Of a DNA stretch of 64,000 nucleotides, positions 42,801 through 53,000 are shown in pieces. Position 1 is the first letter of the stretch; every line of letters starts with the position of its first letter. The notes under the pieces were generated by a model that saw only the letters and a list, made by a program, of their open reading frames with translations, made no database searches and had not been told where the DNA came from. The DNA is from Nautilus pompilius. Its lineage: Eukaryota > Mollusca > Cephalopoda > Nautilida > Nautilidae. The DNA is taken from positions 617,501 through 681,500 of the forward strand of contig JACATO010000095.1 in the NCBI GenBank assembly GCA_018389105.1, given 5' to 3'. The translations under genes were made by a program, and so were the position numbers.

Positions 42801-44252
42801 AAGCATCTCATGTATGATACAACACCACCAATGCTTGCTTTCATGTCTGCTCTGCCATGTCATAATGAATGCATAAATGTCCCATTTTACTCACAAACCC
42901 TTGAAAGCATTGGTATGAAGGATCAAAGAAGGCATATCCTGTTGCATGAGATATTTTGCAATTCAAACTGGTGAAAATGAGAGAGATTGTCAGAAACCTT
43001 GGACAATCAAATGTTCGTGCATGTGGTACTATCATCAAGCCTTTTCAGAAACATGTAACATCATCGAAAAGCCATTGATGTTTACACTGTGTGCTTGATA
43101 AATGCAATTTGTACCCACCAATAACAAAGCATTTCAAATACTCTTGATACTATAAACTATATATTAAAAAAACAGCATTATCCAATAAATTTGGGGAGAC
43201 TCTGCATACAAAAGGTCAGTGGGTAATGCAGTAAAGGTATATTTTGTTGCTATAATTTTAAAAGGGGAAAAATGTAAACTGGTACTTATGGAAGCAAGAT
43301 CTGCATGAATTAAGACAAAAAGAAGGTTAAAAGCAAAATGCAGTTGGCTTCATAAATAGGTCTGGTGGCTGCTGTAAACTAGACTTTGTCTATCATGTAA
43401 ACAATGTTTTAACGCTTTTACATTGTTCATTTTAAAGAACTGAAAATGATAATTGTTTCAGAATCTGATTTGTATTAAAAAACCCTCCTAAAAAAAAACA
43501 ACAGAATGGTAAAAGAATCAGTGATCTGCCCCTTAAATCAAGACATCTGACATATCTGAAAAATCTTACTGCAATGCTCTACAAAATAAATTAAACAGGG
43601 GTCAGAATCTTCCCACGGTGTATTTTTCAAATTGAGACAAAATGGTTGATTTATTATCTGTTTTATCTAATTCCTGCAGCTATTTCAGAATGTATTTCTG
43701 TGCATGTCTTGTGGTAGAGCAAACAGTACATCAGCTATTAAGACCCTGTAGTGAGGTTACCAGGCGTGTTAACAGTGGTCCACGCTATCCAGTATTGTAC
43801 AGGTTATATCCTCTCCTACCTGTTGACCATTCTGAGTTCTGTTAGAACAGGGATTATGTTTGCTATAAAAAGAGGGGGAAAACAGGAGCAACAGAGAAAT
43901 GCAAAGGTAATGACAACCCCTGCAGACTACTCCTAATTTCATTAAAGCTTTAAAACTAGTTTTGGGTAATTTTTACTTTTATTACACGGTTACGTGTTCT
44001 TTCTTTAGCATTTAAAAATGCAGCTTTCAACTAATTTCTTTACTATAAAAAAAAAGAATAAAGAGAGAATGATTAAGTAAAGGGTTATGCTATTACATAA
44101 GAGTGATAAGCCTGAGAATAGATGTCAATTCCCTAAAAAATTGAGCAAATAATTCATTCATATTTAGCAAATATGCTTGGGAGAGTTATTAATTTCTAGA
44201 TTCAGATCCTATTTAAAGGGAGCTAAGGGTTGTTATTGTTGTTGGTGTAAAT
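42801..44252. other. Non-coding stretch, no gene recognised
   Basis: Open stretches at 42841-43038 (minus) and 43642-43936 (plus, two frames) were examined. No domain was recognised. Confidence 0.45.
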
Positions 44253-44300
44253 CAGCAGTGGGCAAACGTTTTTGGTCGTGGGCCAAATACAGAAAAATAT
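44253..44300 (+). mobile_element. hAT-type terminal fragment
   Basis: cagcagtgggcaaacgtttt followed by ggtcgtgggcc resembles the start of many hAT elements. No matching inverse end was found downstream, so this is a truncated tip. The following segment (44310-44390, 'agtagcgtatccaggggga') may belong to a different insertion. Confidence 0.4.
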
Positions 44301-44459
44301 AAGGAGTCGTGGACAGTAGCGTATCCAGGGGGACGGGGTCAGGCAGGGCACATGCCAAGTGTGCCACTGAGCAGTTTCTATTAAAGTTAGACAAGCCATC
44401 CTCGGATAGTGAAAAAACAATTTTCTTCAGATATATGACCTGCCTTTGATTACTGTTGT

Positions 44460-44610
44460 TGAGTGCAGGGATAGCCTAATGGTTCAAGTGCACAATTTCG
44501 AAGGCATCAAGGGTTCGATGCCCCGTAATGTTAGGCAAAAATATAAATCCCTGCGTTCACCAATGTCAGGCTGTTGTGACAAGCCGATCGGTCATAATTA
44601 AAATTCAAAT
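44460..44610 (+). mobile_element. tRNA-derived SINE of a second type
   Basis: Box A tagcctaatgg (44472-44482) and box B ggttcgatgcc (44512-44522) match the polymerase III promoter consensus and lie about 40 bp apart, as in tRNA genes. The flanks do not close a clean cloverleaf and the unit runs on into a body (ctgttgtgacaagccgatcg) and an A-rich end near 44599. This is a SINE rather than a tRNA gene. It differs from the abundant Ser-tRNA-like family. Confidence 0.6.
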
Positions 44611-44862
44611 ATGGATCCTGTTGTGAGCTCGCCACCCACCACAGCTTGTCCAACAAAGGTTGAGAACAAAGCCCGCAAAGGCGAGATGAAGCCCCTACCC
44701 AAGGCCAATGCTCACATAAGATTGGCCATGTGCTCCGGAGTCGAGTCCGGCATCTTCAAACAGGTGAAGGGATCGTTCCAGTTCATGCCTAAAGCTGCCA
44801 ACTCGTTTGAGGCAGAGAAAAGCGTGGGCCGAAGACACTCAAAGACCGAAGGATACATGTAG
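44611..44862 (+). pseudogene. Histone H1-like fragment, internally deleted
   Basis: An 83-codon plus-strand frame. Its first 30 residues are Pro/Ser/Thr- and Lys-rich, as in an H1 N-terminal tail. The segment ANAHIRLAMCSGVESGIFKQ followed by VKGSFQF resembles the last helix and wing of the H1 globular domain (family pattern: NA.IK.AL..GV..G.L.Q.KG.GASGSF). The first two helices of the globular domain and the GASG residues before SF are missing, and the Lys/Ala/Pro-rich C-terminal tail is replaced by a short tail ending in a stop. An intact H1 is roughly two to three times longer. It probably derives from a retrocopy or repeat-captured fragment, because it starts exactly at the end of a tRNA-like SINE. 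Chance similarity is possible. Confidence 0.45.
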
Positions 44863-45497
44863 CAGATCCTGCATTATAAGCGGAACATAAATACAAGGAA
44901 AAAAATATGATATGCCTTTGATTTTTGTTGTGTCCATTTGCGTGATTCGAAAGACAAGTGGCCTCGACTTAGCCTTATATAGACTGATTACTAAAAGCTC
45001 AAAATTTACAAAAATAATTGATAAGATTGGTACAACTAATGTTCACCTTATTTACAAAGATTTCGAACATATTTCAAAGGTAAGGCCATAGGGAGCATAA
45101 TGTGACTGCTTTCGAAACTGGCGATTCACGTGAGCAGAGCGAGGGAATGAACACCACTGGGCAGATCAAACGTAGGAAACCGTCACCATAACAATTATCA
45201 TAGGTGAGAGGCACTAGGATGGTCAGATTGTTAGACAACTTATATAAATTATAAGGTAAAAATGCAGTGCTTGGAGCTACATGATCATATACCTCATAAT
45301 ACCACTGCTCAGTGCCAACTGCCAGTAAGACCATTCACCTGCACAAACTGGGGAGATAGTCCAGAATTTTGTGAAAAATCTATGAAATTTAATGTTCTTA
45401 TTAAAAGTGCCATTTCCTTATTTCAGAGCATTGTGTTTTAGCTGCCTACCACCCCACAGGCTTGTCTCCCATGGCAGCCACTCCCGGTTGTGTCACA
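44863..45497. other. Non-coding stretch, no gene recognised
   Basis: Interval between the H1-like fragment and the composite transposon. An 86-codon minus-strand open stretch (45074-45334) has no recognisable domain. Confidence 0.4.
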
Positions 45498-45780
45498 GGC
45501 CTCTACGGTAACTCACACTGGCATCACCAGCCCTTCGCGGCTTCCTGTCACTCTGCTGCCCTGATGGAAGAGCTGACAATACACACTGGTGACGGGAGCC
45601 GGAACTGTAACTGTTACTGCACTAGGACTGATGCAATCGAGCCGTGCTCCCATTGGCTAACTCCATTAGGGCCGGCAGCTAAAAGACTTGGACCTCGATG
45701 CCTGCGGGAAGCAAGTGGCAAGCACTAGACAGGGACTCAGGCCAGATGCGCACTAGGCCAACTTGGGCACCAACAGTGTA
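45498..45780 (+). repeat. Left long terminal inverted repeat of the composite element
   Basis: Inverse partner of 48089-48361. It runs inward from ggcctctacggtaactc to the segment ending caccaacagtgta. Very long inverted repeats are unusual for hAT elements, which normally have tens of bases. Confidence 0.75.
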
Positions 45781-45845
45781 AGAATACCATGAAATGTTTA
45801 TTCCCGAATAAGGAAAGTGGAGCTAAAGGAAGGAAGAGATGAAAG

Positions 45846-46926
45846 TTGGAGGCAGAGGAAGCCAAGAGGTCGAGAAAGTTGTTCAAGCACTTCTTAGAAA
45901 AGCCTGGAACAAGTAGTTTGACATGTTTCATGAAGTCACCTGCACCTGCTACAAATTTGTTAGAATCCGAAGGTGGATCAAGTACAAATGCATCACAAGC
46001 CGAGGATAAAGTCAAGTCAGATAAATCCGAGTATAACGAGAATAAGTGTGAGGCTGCCAGAGAGAACGTGGACATCACAGAAAGGGAAATCGATGGTGAT
46101 AATGTTGAGTTTATTGATGAGATTAAACCTGACAACAATGAACCTAGTGAACTGGATGGTGTCGAAGAACCTTGAACTCTCACACCAAGTGATTGAACAG
46201 CACGATATTGGACTTCTGAAGTTCGACAAGGATACTGGAAAAACAATTCTGCCTGACGCGTTGAGAACAGAAATAATAAAGCTAGGTTTGAAGTATTTCC
46301 AGAATAGCGAGGGGCCTTTTCTTCCAAGAAATAACTGCTCAATGAACAAAACTTGGTTCAAGAGAAAATTGGGAAATGGTCGTGGTGAGAAAGTAACTCG
46401 CTCATGGCTGGTCTATTCCCCTTAAAGTCTGTATTTTGTATCTGTTGTCTTCACTATTCCCGGTCAGACAATCAGTCCTCATTGGAGCAGGAAAGTGGAT
46501 TCAACCACTGGAAAAAAATTGAAAGGATTAGTGTTCATGAAAATGCTAAGAATCATCGGAAATGCTTCATACAATGGAAAGAGATGGAAAGAAATTTAGC
46601 TGAAAACAGAGTTATTGACACGGAACTTCAGTCACAGATTGAGAAGGAAAAGCAGAAGTGGCGTGATATCTTGATAAGAATCCTTCACTACATAAAATTC
46701 CTTGCAACACAGAACCTGGCTTTGCGAAGACACAGAAAGTCACTTCACCTAGACGATGACTCCAATGTGAGAAATTTCCTTGAATTACTGAAACTACTGG
46801 CCATCTCTGACCCTGTCATGAAAGCACACCTCACTCGCATGGAAAATCATCCTGGATCCACGTTTTATCTTTCACTGGGTATCCAGAACGAATTCATGCG
46901 CATGCTGGCATCCACTGTTCGCCAGG
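45846..46926 (+). pseudogene. ZMYM1-like transposase N-terminal half, frameshifted
   Basis: Three overlapping plus-strand frames form one protein: 45846-46175 (acidic, Ser/Glu-rich leader), then about 46176-46420, then 46404 onward, so there are frameshifts near 46175 and 46415. The second part has LPRNNCSMNKTWFKRKLGNG and then GEKVTRSWLVYSP. The third continues with SVFCICCLHY, making a TTF-type zinc finger of the kind found before DUF4371. DUF4371-type motifs follow: FNHWKKIERISVHENAKNH, WRDILIRILHYIKFLATQNL, NFLELLKLLAISDPVMKAHL and LSLGIQNEFMRMLASTVRQ. The match stops abruptly at TVRQ (about 46920), just before the catalytic core. In the family the rest of the core and a hATC domain follow; here they are absent and an oppositely oriented sequence begins. 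Confidence 0.8.
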
Positions 46927-48050
46927 TGTTTAGTTGCCTCATCAGATCAACTAAAAAGCCATGTCTGCCAACCATAGAGGGTCACTCAGTTCATGAAGAG
47001 GTTGGCCTTTTTCTTTTAAAAACTGGTCAATTTCACATTTCAGTGAATAAAACCGGTGCAGTACAGAGCCGTGACTAAGCCCGTATTTAACATCAACTTC
47101 AGATAGGAAAGCCTGGAATTCTCTGTGAGAGTGCCCGTGCTTGAATTAGGTTGATAGTTTTCGCCACAATGTTCATGACATCACCAAGCTGGACTGCCTT
47201 GGCAAAGAGTGCCTCTTGGTGGATAATACAGTGCATTTTAACAGCTGCACCTCCACTGTCGTGAACTCTTTTGCACACCATAGAAGCCATCCCATTCTGC
47301 TCACTTGTCATTGCTGAAGACCCATCTGTTGTAACTCCACACAGCTTGTCCTAGAACGATTTCATGTCATCAATCATAGCAGATACAGCTTCAAAAATGT
47401 TCTCACCTTGATGGCGCTCTTTAGACTCCTAAGATCAAGCAGCTCCTCATTGATGCAAAAGTTGTAGTCAACTCCCCGCAAAAAAATTAACAGCTTGGCT
47501 GTGTCCGTAGCATCTGTGCCCTCGTCACATGCAATTGAGTAAAAATCAAATGCACTAGCTTTGTCTGACACCTGCTATTTTAAGTTAGCTGATAATTCTT
47601 TAACTCATCAGGCAACTGTTGTTCTGGACAAACTGACGTTGTTGAATTCTTGAGTTTTCTCTGGGCACATTATCCTGACAACTTTAGTGAGACACTCTTT
47701 AATAAACTCACCATCCTAGAAGGGTTTACCATGCTAGGCGATTAGCTGAGCTATCTCGTAGCTAGCCATTGTGGCATTTTCCTGTACTTTGTTGGCATGA
47801 AAAAAATACTGCTGTTGAGCTTTCGGTTTAGTGGTCAGATGGTTAACTTTCTGCTCTTGCTCTGTGCCAGTGTACAAAGTTTAGGACTGATGTTTCATTT
47901 TGTGACGTCTTTGAACATTATATTCTCTCATCACCACAATAAATTCCATGCAAATCAAACAGGTACACTGTCCCCTGACTTCTGTGAAAAAGTATTACTT
48001 TTTCCACCGTCTGAAATTTTTGGCAATCCATTTTTTCAGTTCTGCCATGT
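46927..48050 (-). pseudogene. GTF2IRD2-like hAT transposase N-terminal half, broken
   Basis: Read on the minus strand from 48050 downward through several frames. A BED-like zinc finger comes first (CTCLICMEFIVVMREYN followed by RRHKMKH, about 47890-47980). Then a linker with QQQYFFMPTKYR; ASAFDFYSIACDEGTDATD followed by TAKLLIFLRGVD (about 47470-47570), which carries the first acidic catalytic motif; LCGVTTDGSSAMTSEQ (about 47300-47345), which carries the second; CIIHQEALFAKA (about 47205-47240), typical of this family; and RFYSLKCEIDQFLKEKGQPL with DPLWLADMAF (about 46950-47060). The similarity continues in a shifted frame as LVDLMRQLNT up to about 46927 and then stops. Stops and frameshifts are present throughout, for example a stop before DKLCGV. 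The C-terminal part, including the final acidic residue and hATC dimerisation domain, is missing. Confidence 0.85.
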
Positions 48051-48088
48051 TTAATAATGCAAGATGAAATTAATATTGATTTGATTGA

Positions 48089-48361
48089 TACTGTTGGTGC
48101 TGAGCTGGCTGGTGGGCATCTGGCCGAAGTCTCTGTCCAATCCTTGCTATGTGCTCACCGCAGGCATTGAGGTCTGAGTGTTTTAGCTGCTAGCTCCAAT
48201 GCCGTTAGCCAATGGGAGTGCGGCTCGATTACATCAGTCCTATTGCAGTAACAGCCGAGTTCTGGCTCCCGTCACCAGCATGTATTGTCCGTGCTTCCAT
48301 CAGGGCAATAGGAAGCTGTGGGTGGGGCCAGTGACGCCAGCGAGAGTTACCGCAGAGGCCC
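48089..48361 (-). repeat. Right long terminal inverted repeat of the composite element
   Basis: Inverse partner of 45498-45780, ending gagttaccgcagaggccc. The match extends through the 'gttagccaatgggagtgcgg' and 'ctcccgtcaccag' blocks. Confidence 0.75.
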
Positions 48362-48379
48362 ATGATGCAAGTCCTTTTC

Positions 48380-48525
48380 AGATTTGAGAAAAAAAGTTAG
48401 AGTACCTGGAGGAAATCCACACAGAAGAACCCATACCAGGGAGGTTTTCTAAATTGAGCCATTTTATTGGGGAAGCAAATTCAAGCCCTTGACCTTAGCA
48501 GTCCAATAAAACACGAGACAATTGT
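48380..48525 (-). mobile_element. Ser-tRNA-like SINE copy
   Basis: It begins within 20 bp of the composite element. It contains 'gtacctggaggaaatccaca', 'cataccagggaggttttcta', 'caagcccttgaccttagcag' and 'tccaataaaac'. On the minus strand the last part gives 'attggactgctaaggtcaag', the Ser(GCU)-like anticodon arm. It lacks the tail half, perhaps because the composite element inserted into it. Confidence 0.65.
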
Positions 48526-49620
48526 ACCATACTTATATAAGTTAAAATGAAGACATCCCAGGTTTTTGTAGCATATAAAAAATCTGCTTTGATACAAGTT
48601 GCTTTTAATCCTCTCCTATTCAAGTTGGCTGAATGAATGAAACCAGACTATATGTTAGATATTCAAGTTTGACTGAAATTAACATGGGTCGCTTACGCAT
48701 CCCACACGCTGGTCAGTTTGGTGGCCAGTTACACAAGGTACTTCGGCGCCTCAACAGGGCCTTTTAGGCCTACACCAGGAGCTTGCTCCACACACGGCTT
48801 CGGCCTCCTCCACAGAGATAGACACACATACATGAACTTTACACCTGCACCCACACGCATGCACCACAGAAAGAAAAAAAAAAAAGATCTGATGAGTCAT
48901 TTAATGATCACTTCCACTTATAGAAGTTTTCTGGTCCACATTATCATTTCCTCTGGCTATTTATATTTTGTTTTTCCTGCAAAAGTGATTTTACCAGTGA
49001 TCCATGTGTGTTAACCAGTTTGTTTACTAACTTGATACAACAGAATCCAACAGTGAATGCTTTCCTTATAGTCGTGTAGAGATCTCCGGTGTTCATATCT
49101 TATCAATTAGCTGGTTGGACAGCGGTGGACAGACCTTGGACGTGGAGAGTGAGAGCAAGATCATCAAGTGAAGTTAGAGTCATCTGTAGCTGATCAATGT
49201 GCAGTGTTTTCGCAGTCTGTTGGCCAAAAAACTGATATCTATGTCAACATGAGGCCAATGGATTTCTTCTTCATCACATACCTGAGCAATGAACTGCTAT
49301 GTAGCTCAGACCCAAAGTGGTAAATATAACTACAATTCTGTGCCAACCATTGAGGATTACTGGAGTGACAATGAATCAATAATGGCACCTCTGTGACAAC
49401 AGTCAGATGATTTTATTTCACATTTTGAACTTTCTGGACCATAAATTAGATTTTTCCTTTCATTTTCTTGGTGTATTTACTTTTTTATTTGGATTATTGA
49501 ACTGTGTATTAAGCCATTAGTGCTATTTGTATCATTCCATGACTTTTAATGTTTTAATAATATTAAACAAGTAGGTCCATTTTGTGCAACCATCCTGCAA
49601 ATTGTCTGAAAGTTTATATT
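48526..49620. other. Non-coding stretch with a G+C-rich patch
   Basis: The interval 48685-48860 is clearly more G+C-rich (tacttcggcgcctcaacagg, acggcttcggcctcctccac) and ends in an A-run near 48872-48882. This might be a retroelement with its tail, but no promoter boxes or coding motif were recognised. The rest is ordinary AT-rich DNA. Confidence 0.4.
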
Positions 49621-50050
49621 ACATATTGCATTTCTTGAACAAGAAAGGGTTAAAGTACGATTTCAAAAGTAGTGGCAAAATATTTTAAATGAATGAAATA
49701 ATTTGCTAGAGGATCTTTCCACTTCAAGGAACAGGAAATCAATTGTCAAATTAGTTTCATATATATTTCTCATGCATCTGTGATTCAATTTTGTGATGGA
49801 AGTATAAAGTAACTAGAGAGAAACAATTTTGAGGTACATATTGCATTTCTTGAACAAGAAAGGGTTAAAGTATGATTTCAAAAGTAGTGGCAAAATATTT
49901 TAAATGAATGAAATAATTTGCTAGAGGATCTTTCCACTTCAAGGAACAGGAAATCAATTGTCAAATTAGTTTCATATATATTTCTCATGCATCTGTGATT
50001 CAATTTTGTGATGGAAGTATAAAGTAACTAGAGAGAAACAATTTTGAGGT
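49621..50050. repeat. 215-bp tandem duplication, two nearly identical copies
   Basis: Copies at 49621-49835 and 49836-50050, each starting acatattgcatttcttgaac and ending gaaacaattttgaggt. By direct comparison I find one difference (aaagtacgat versus aaagtatgat). This is either a very recent duplication or an assembly artefact. It is non-coding. Confidence 0.95.
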
Positions 50051-53000
50051 ATCAGAAGTCTTAATTTTAATCCATTATATTCCATATATACCAATGGTAT
50101 GCAATTAAAAAGCTAAGGATGGTAGATCTAAAGGGTGCACAAACTATAAAAAACTTGTGTGGAGCACAAAGGGAACTTGGATATGAAATCCAGAATCTAC
50201 AAAATCCAGAAATGCTGACCCAAAAATGAGCTATGATAAGTAATATATCTAAAGGACAAGTGTCCCTGCCACTCTACAACTAAACACACAACCATAATGA
50301 AGCTGATGCAGATGGTGGATATGGCAACTAGGCGAAGAAAAGAGGCCCAAATAATCTGTGGCCAAATAAGTTAGATATGAGACACCAACATCTCAGCCAG
50401 AGAAAGCTGTCCCAAAGAGACCATCAATGCAAAGATAATCTGGTAGAGAGGGAAAAAATGCCTCAAAATTTAATATGATCTATACCAAGCACCCATGCTA
50501 TATTTTCTAATCCCTCATCCCATATAAATTAAATAGGATCAAAGATCTCTAATTCTAGACTAAACAGGGCAACACAGTCCTGAAGAAACAAGAATCATGG
50601 AGTAATAATGTCAAAAACCTGAACTTGGACAAGATTCATTTAAAATAACCCACTCACCTAAGAATTCCTACACTATGATGGAGGAGACAAAACCATTAAA
50701 TCTTACCTCATAAGACAAAGAATTAGAAAGTTCTAATTGTGATACTAAACAAACAGGAATAGGTTTGAATAACTTCAGTCTACACCCTTTTCCTGTACAA
50801 GAATCATTAGTGTTATATAAACTTTAACCCTGAGCAGAATTAGAAGAATCTTTGTGCAACAAAATTTACAGGGTTAGTTCTTCATGAATATAAGAATAGA
50901 TAATTACAATTTTTTTTTTTTAATTCCTAGATGGTAGAAACCCTTTGTTGTTACTCATTATGTTGGAGAGACTTAGTGAATATTCTGTGGAAATAAACAA
51001 GTAAATAAATCTAGACCTGTCTATAAAGTTTAGTAAAAGGTAAAAATAAAATACAGAAACTTGGCTATGATTACAGTTAAGTTTTATCAATGATTCTATA
51101 ATGATGATATATTTGTTGCTTGTTTTGTTCTCTGGAGACTTCTGGTAATTCTTACACCTAAAATTTCAAATGATTTCAGCAAATATTTTATTCATGAATG
51201 TCATCTTCATGAAGATTACTTTCAAAATCTCACATTAAACATCTATAGAAAACTAATAGCCAGAGTAAGATTTCAAGTTCCTAGTATACAGCTCTCTTAG
51301 CTTCTTCCAACACCAGGACAGATGTGTAATTTAGATATGCACACATGGGAAGCATTTACATAAGGGGAAAAGCCTTCTCAATGCCTTCAAATGAATATAA
51401 CAGAACTATGGAATACGTGGACAGATTGCATTCAAAAGACAACTACTAATAGTATAGAAAAAATATAAGCATTGAGAGAGATTTGGAATACAACAAGGGT
51501 TAAAGCACAGTCTTCAGCTATAACTCTGGAGCAGTTTTTACATCAGTGAGGGCATGTATACATTTTTGTGTAAATTCCTCTTCTGCTATAGTGATGAGAA
51601 CAGTGTATCTAAGCAAATTTCAGCAGAGGATAACATCTGAACTACAGTGTAGATCTTTTAGCTACCTACTAGGCTAAGTCAAAGATGGAGAAATATGTTG
51701 TTAAGAAAGTTCAAGATCTTCAAAGATGAAGTATAAACTCTTAGTCCCTCCTATCATTGGAAAAATGTTTGCAACTGGTTTATGACATATGTGCAGAAAA
51801 CATGAATGATATCATATTACTATATTTAAATGTTGACCAGATAGTAAATTGTGTTATTCTTTTATCTGTCCCTTCTGGGTTATATGCTATACAAGGACAG
51901 AAAGCCATCATATTTTATATAGCTCCAACCCACATGGAGAAAAAGAATGTCTACCAATGATTTTTTAAACTAACTTACACCATTTTAGTAGTTTATTCCA
52001 TTCTCTTCAAAATCTATTATCAGAAAAAAATATATTTTTAATATACTATGCCAGGATGACTCGATCATACAAACCCTGCAGATAACTGGAAGAATTTGTT
52101 AATGCCCTTCATTATTTGAAAATCTCTATTTGAATTCTTCTAAGATGTCTAACAACCAGACAAGATAGATTTGTGATATTCCAAGATCTGAATTCTGGAA
52201 AATTTTGTAGTAAATTATCTTTCTAATATTTCAAACACATTCCTTCCACAAACAGACGCAAAACCTGCACATTATCTTCAAGGTGTGGATGGGATATCAG
52301 TGTGTTCAAATGAAACTCAGCTGAAATGACACTGCTGTAATAGTATACCTGGAATTTATTTGACTTTTCCCAATATATTGGACTACATTTTTGAAAAGGT
52401 TTTTTTTATTCCATAGTTTGGTTAATTATTCCGAGAATTTTATTACCTACATTAAGATCTTATAACTATTACTGCTGCAAAACCAACCCACCCCAAACCT
52501 TTTTTATCATGCTTACAGAATTTTAAAAATATTTCTAATATAACATTTAACATTTTTAAGCGCTCTGTCTCAGCTTTACACCAAGTTTCATCATTGCAAT
52601 AACCCTGACCTACCACATCAGAGCGGAACACTGAGAACAAGCATGTGATCAGATACATGTCAATCAATGCCAGACCTCACAAAACCACTCACAGCTACTA
52701 ATGCTCCAGCCAGAGCAGTGAAGAGACAAAAGCATCTTGATGAAACAGGAATGTGTTTTCATTTTTCAACATGATCATTAGATTCACATATATTGTGCAT
52801 GATGGATGAAATGATTTGAAAAAGAAAGACAAAAAAATTAAAATTTTTAACACCACCACCACCACCACCACCACAATTCCAGAATTTATTAAATTAAAAG
52901 AAAAAGGAAAAAATAAGGGATTTAATTATCAGGTGGAAACAAGTTCACCTGTAAAGGTAAGATATTTACCATTCCTTGTTCTTCCTATGGACAGTTTCAT

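Follow-up and report, generated by a model that had tools for sequence, protein, structure and literature searches.

Two different hAT-type transposase halves face each other at positions 45498 to 48361 of the analysed stretch of Nautilus pompilius DNA (64,000 nucleotides of contig JACATO010000095.1, hereafter the window). A preliminary description presented this interval as one element bounded by inverted repeats of about 275 bp, which raises the question of whether the locus is a chimeric transposon that has been mobile as a unit or the remains of separate insertions. Comparison with full-length copies elsewhere in the same genome supports, with a probability of roughly 90%, a nested insertion of one hAT element (A) in another (B), combined with deletion.

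Architecture of the locus

Both transposase halves named in the preliminary description are present, and they abut at 46925/46926, inside the range that it had given (46921-46930). The plus-strand half matches DUF4371 (PF14291), which is a part of hAT-type transposases; the match falls short of the curated cut-off in the window (E = 2.6e-4) and reaches 5.9e-17 in the sister copy L009. For the minus-strand half, the window retains a SPIN-DOC finger (PF18658, E = 2.3e-4), and the sister copy L021 matches DUF4371 at 2.5e-5, both below the cut-off. We take the first half to be of the ZMYM1 type and the second to be of the Charlie8/GTF2IRD2 type. The longest open frame was 362 aa among 10 A copies and 155 aa among six B copies, and searches of solved structures returned no matches. 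The features of the locus are as follows.

44253..44313, minus strand: left (3') end of B, the outer element, with terminal repeat CAGCAGTGGGCAAAC (CAGGGGTGGGCAAAC in other B copies)
44314..46925, plus strand: left ~60% of A, a ZMYM1-like hAT element, within B and beginning at its own terminal repeat CAGTAGCGTATCC
44602..44862, plus strand: open frame in the A left arm, with weak likeness to a linker-histone globular domain (PF00538, best E = 1.3e-5)
45433..45777, plus strand: promoter-like module, A version, upstream of the A transposase ATG (45789)
45789..46925, plus strand: 5' portion of the A transposase region, with frames broken (open frames, DUF4371 matches)
46925..46926, no strand: probable deletion junction joining A to B; the similarity to A copies ends at 46925 and that to B copies starts at 46926
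46926..48371, minus strand: B fragment, comprising the 5' part of a Charlie/GTF2IRD2-like transposase and a truncated B 5' region
48090..48371, minus strand: promoter-like module, B version, lacking its outer ~55 bp, as well as the B right end

The inverted repeats are real as arms. They lie inside 45488-45756 and 48109-48370 and comprise three ungapped blocks of 146, 50 and 46 nt that are 78-88% complementary; the gapped alignment has 77.7% identity over 282 nt (E = 1.2e-55). However, they are not terminal repeats, being interior to A and to B, respectively. All 10 aligned A copies run past 45498, nine of them matching to 44314-44347 and L009 to 44396. Across 12 A loci, the leftward match to the window reaches 44313-44347 in 10, 44396 in L009 and only 45608 in L014, while on the right the match ends at 46920-46925 in these loci and in the A piece of L018, except for L015 (46935). 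On the other side, the B 5' end continues for ~350-365 bp past window position 48370 in L021 and L024. Since the outer ends of the full-length copies lie elsewhere, the arms are interior sequence and 45498-48361 is not a bounded element; the borders proposed earlier are therefore not element ends, A copies extending past the left one and the left terminus of B being at 44253. The facing orientation of the arms follows from the antisense position of A within B, the module lying upstream of the transposase in each family.

Full-length A and B elements

Full-length A copies measure ~4.0-4.3 kb and have the ends CAGTGGCGTATC...GATACGCCCCTG, and B copies that retain both ends measure ~2.85-2.96 kb, with the ends CAGGGGTGGGCA...TGAACACCCCTG. 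Target duplications were scored by taking the best pair no more than 10 bases from each end. In A, the 8-bp duplication matches at 8/8 positions in six of the eight copies tested (L016 and L017 among the copies being one duplicated locus) and at 7/8 in the other two; in the four B copies it matches at 8/8, 7/8, 6/8 and 6/8. Both families thus show the marks of hAT elements: short terminal inverted repeats starting with CAG, 8-bp duplications and a hAT-type transposase region. In these respects they resemble the known Charlie8/GTF2IRD2-SPINDOC and ZMYM1 types of the hAT superfamily, with their CAG short terminal repeats, 8-bp duplications and DUF4371-region transposases, but differ from them in that families with different ends here have a ~330-bp promoter-like module in common.

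Two pairs of A copies stand out. L010 and L011, ~164 kb apart on the same contig (C340), are 99.2% identical over 4258 bp, in comparison to 82-89% between L010 and other A copies, and have different flanks, each with its own 8-bp duplication (CATATTGG and, as read by eye, GGTAGATG). This pair appears to record recent movement of an A copy without a long open frame. L016 (C2314) and L017 (C2019) are 99.9% identical over 8993 bp, flanks included, which points either to a segmental duplication or to haplotypes that the assembly left unmerged.

The left arm of A also contains the frame at 44602-44862. PF00538 matched all seven pieces scanned, which came from the 11 A sequences with the frame and excluded the window's own piece, and the frame gave no match among solved structures. 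Derivation of the frame from a captured H1 gene of this genome was considered and dropped: the 10 genomic matches to PF00538 include no A copy, and six H1 loci of those 10 share no DNA match with A and just one translated match (E = 3e-4), which falls elsewhere in A. The H1 likeness of the frame is weak and may serve as a lead only.

The window holds two further repeats to the right of the locus. At 48681-48890 lies a SINE-like repeat of ~210-220 bp that ends in an A-rich tail; among 828 first-look candidates, 40 were scored, and 39 other places were 79-88% identical over their best pieces. Positions 49620-50051 comprise a 217-bp tandem duplication, the copies being 99.5% identical.

A probable nested insertion followed by deletion

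Set against these full-length elements, the window locus resolves into separately bounded parts. The segment 44253..44313 matches the end of the full-length B copy L024 with 96.7% identity over 60 bp, and L021 and L023 with 88-92%. A begins directly after it, 61 bp inside the B 3' end, and 44314..46925 aligns in one piece at 82.9-86.9% identity to seven A copies and at 77% to L027. The remainder, 46926..48371, is 81.6-86.2% identical to B copies and includes the SPIN-DOC finger and, as located by eye, the B transposase ATG at 48049; in this arrangement, the A and B transposases face each other. Relative to L010 and L016, the window lacks the last 1.55-1.59 kb of A. Relative to L021, L023 and L024, it lacks 1.00-1.03 kb from the middle of B, and the ~350-365 bp at the B 5' end found in L021 and L024 is missing after ~48371. 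The A 3' half, the lost middle of B and the B 5' end were sought across the window, and apart from the known arms and B end, only matches of 20-52 bp were recovered, at E = 1e-4 or weaker. Without the right ends of both A and B, the remnant cannot move as a unit.

The likeliest course of events would begin with the insertion of A near the 3' end of B by ordinary hAT transposition. One or more later deletions would then have removed ~2.6 kb in the middle and at least ~0.36 kb at the right, the middle loss taking the right ~1.6 kb of A along with ~1.0 kb from B, so that the two now join at 46925/46926. Typical A copies read TGTTCGCCAG before the junction and AGTTTACTG after it, and typical B copies TTTGTTCAGT and GTGTTTAGTTG, such that the two families share a few bases at most at the join. 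The right target duplication of A has been deleted from this locus, and no matching pair remains there as proof of insertion.

Both junctions were searched for in the window's own genome assembly (727.6 Mb in 2558 contigs), from which 20 stretches around junction matches were fetched; the numbers of repeat matches in these searches are lower bounds. With 46850-47000 as the query, all 28 first-look candidates were scored: 20 match on the A side, one of which continues 10 bases beyond the junction, seven match on the B side, and a single match, the window itself, spans it. With 44250-44420, all 27 candidates were likewise scored, 21 matching on the A side only, five on the B side only, and again only the window spanning the join. 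Each junction is thus single among the scored matches, and nothing there indicates that the chimera has been mobile.

These observations bear upon two other accounts of the locus. According to the first, the gap repair of a broken B copied in the left 2.6 kb of an A located elsewhere by template switching. Its product would look identical to the observed sequence, and a join at which no more than a few bases are shared suits it; yet the A part begins exactly at the A terminal repeat, which is expected of transposition but would be a coincidence for copying. Template switching is consequently improbable and was dropped as the first choice. According to the second, a single chimeric long-inverted-repeat element transposed as a unit, and although the arms are truly inverted and flank both halves, this is highly improbable and was dropped, as the arms are interior in A copies and in those B copies that keep the 5' region, the outer ends lie elsewhere, and each junction was matched only once.

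The nested insertion with deletion also shows what was sound in the earlier suggestion that two elements had collapsed into one: two hAT copies were indeed fused by sequence loss, but the interval is not one element and its arms are not termini, the full-length copies instead indicating nested insertions with separate boundaries. The insertion of one element inside another, followed by sequence loss, is a common pattern of ordinary genome decay. The window locus resembles other nested insertions with later deletion in both respects, and differs from ordinary ones in that the antisense nesting of two module carriers mimics a long-inverted-repeat element.

A promoter-like module in several hAT families

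The preliminary description also suggested that one end of the element had been copied. What stands of this is that the A and B families both have the same ~330-bp module; the sharing is at the level of the families, however, and predates this locus. The module is found in families A, B, C, D and E and at the loci designated X. It lies ~1.1-1.2 kb inside the A left end (0.9 kb in L027) and ~0.31-0.34 kb inside the B 5' end (0.2 kb in L020). Two genome searches with the module yielded 1464 and 1099 first-look candidates, 40 of which were scored each time, and 36 places (8, 20 and 8) were read; as these were picked from the best-scoring matches, the shares below are not genome-wide frequencies. 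The first eight comprised seven of family C and one X (L032). The next 20 comprised 16 of family C (L048 by just ~45 bp of flank), two of family B (L044 only upstream of the module), one X (L058) and one, L062, with other flanks. The last eight comprised five of family D, two of family E and one of family C.

Family C elements are short (0.7-1.2 kb), with the ends CAGTGGTTCCCA...TGGGAACCACTG, and among the five tested, target duplications match at 8/8 in two, 7/8 in one, and 6/8 and 5/8 in the other two. The C transposase is judged from a 59-aa piece of L035, which presumably resembles the C-terminus of hAT proteins such as ZBED5 and SCAND3; Pfam returned only DUF5330 at 0.055, and NCBIfam profiles matched none of the three proteins scanned, this piece among them. 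Family D has the left end CAGTCATGAGCAACC and a SPIN-DOC finger (1.3e-8), and family E the left end CAGTGTTGCRTTCGGTAAC and a BED finger at 0.0088, below the cut-off. The two X loci have the module and ~265 bp downstream of it in common, with a hAT-like protein on the other side that reads away from the module; in L032 this protein matches DUF4371 at 6.2e-7, below the cut-off, and the L058 piece matched no Pfam family. In X, the module may thus lie between two divergent units.

In L062, the module is cut before its 3' end and stands just upstream of an exon-like frame, MPPSCSDFGCTNRENNPPVIFHR, followed by GTAAG. We take this frame to resemble the first exon of a THAP-type gene; its 23 aa gave no match in Pfam.

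The tract common to the A and B modules extends from near TTATAGC as far as GGCACCAACA; the starts in X L058 and in D are similar, and C shares the tract from GGCTTGTCTCC onwards. The A, B and C majority sequences keep CCATTGGCTAACGCCATTGGGGCC and GCTAAAAGACTCGG, and conserve CCATTGGC...CCATTGG together with CTAAAAG, one CCATTGG being absent from X. We regard CCATTGG as an inverted CCAAT box and CTAAAAG as TATA-like. In the window, the distance from GGCACCAACA to the transposase ATG is ~13 bp for A and ~42 bp for B, and in the D copy L064 the ATG lies ~105 bp past the last module match; C copies are without a transposase start. From the motifs and position together, we infer that the module would be a Pol II promoter with a 5' leader. 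Against a plain promoter, the CCAAT boxes of the five D copies are separated from the TATA-like box by an intervening ~110-155 bp, and this split of the module and the opposite orientation in X are both unexpected if the whole module acts as one transposase promoter. The module was also considered as a known RNA, and Rfam gave no matches across 44000-49500 at E values up to 1.

Origin of the shared module

The similarity of the modules contrasts with that of the proteins that they precede. Majority modules are 88% identical between A and B, 88% between A and C, and 83% between B and C, whereas the transposase pieces of A and B show 21% identity (E = 7e-5), the D transposase is 33% identical to that of B (E = 3e-23), and that of A aligns to D over just 14 aa (E = 0.38). 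In a tree of 51 modules, the families mostly hold together (seven label changes, in comparison to a minimum of six and a shuffled mean of 25.1), though most inner branches have poor support (eight of 48 are starred). Nevertheless, D modules cluster with A (95/93) although the D transposase is kin to that of B, and the module of the B copy L023 clusters with C (98/99). The module of L062 shifts between two trees, grouping with A in one and with the D copy L063 in the other. The A copy L027 was considered as a second clear recombinant, which the position of its module with X in the tree (98/88) supports, and set aside, since the sliding comparison is ambiguous.

L023 was examined at 37 sites that separate the other B copies from C, chosen without L023 itself. 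In columns 73-294, 23 of its 25 sites have the C-type state, and in columns 305-316 nine of 10 have the B-type state, although neighbouring columns are not independent (90-96, for example, represent one deletion in B) and the real number of events is smaller. In the sliding comparison over columns 50-300, L023 scores 0.81-0.90 to C and 0.72-0.83 to B, and the order is reversed at the end (0.60 and 0.75). L023 and L024 form a single alignment along the entire element, at 82%. The module of L023 is accordingly best read, from the pattern of its sites, as a putative conversion tract of C type in a B copy. It is the one clear recombinant among the seven B modules in the tree, a small base.

Recombination or gene conversion between hAT families is, on balance, the favoured source of the shared module, ahead of common descent. 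A broader statement has about even odds: that one promoter cassette is traded, through gene conversion and similar events, among no fewer than five hAT families (A, B, C, D and E) whose left terminal repeats differ, giving the module a history of its own. The split module in D and the reversed orientation in X count against it. The nesting of A in B, combined with deletion, could likewise put the promoter of one family between the ends of another; the window locus, both of its right ends being lost, is no working example.

Two further origins can be weighed against exchange. The module might be an independent small mobile element that inserted in each family separately, as its very large number of copies (the 1464 and 1099 first-look candidates) would suggest. 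This is unlikely, as 35 of the 36 places share flanks with at least one other locus (L048 over ~45 bp, and X between two loci only), L062 being the exception, and the alignment shows no terminal repeats at the module borders. Alternatively, the module might have been inherited from one hAT ancestor of all the families. That the carriers are hAT-like, that modules largely cluster by family, and that DUF4371 matches were obtained for pieces of A, B, D and X alike agree with such descent, but it is marginally less credible than separate insertion, considering the 83-88% identity of noncoding modules next to transposases at 21-33% or no detectable identity, and the discordant positions of D and L023 in the tree.

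Promoter sequence carried by a DNA transposon has a parallel in Mutator-like elements, which, according to one published account, carry promoters in their long terminal repeats (PMC3310237). They resemble the elements described here in this respect and differ in that the promoter-like module here has an internal position and is shared by families whose ends differ. Among the open-access papers listed, as judged by title and the start of the abstract, no description of a promoter module common to several hAT families was found.

The window locus itself is a case of ordinary decay, and the module is the part worth following. For annotation, the locus is a warning that antisense-nested carriers of the module resemble a long-inverted-repeat element. 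If the exchange is real, it becomes testable whether DNA transposon families pass promoters on to one another, coupling their activity and silencing. Families with distant transposases would then depend for their expression on one common promoter, and their rise and their silencing may coincide.
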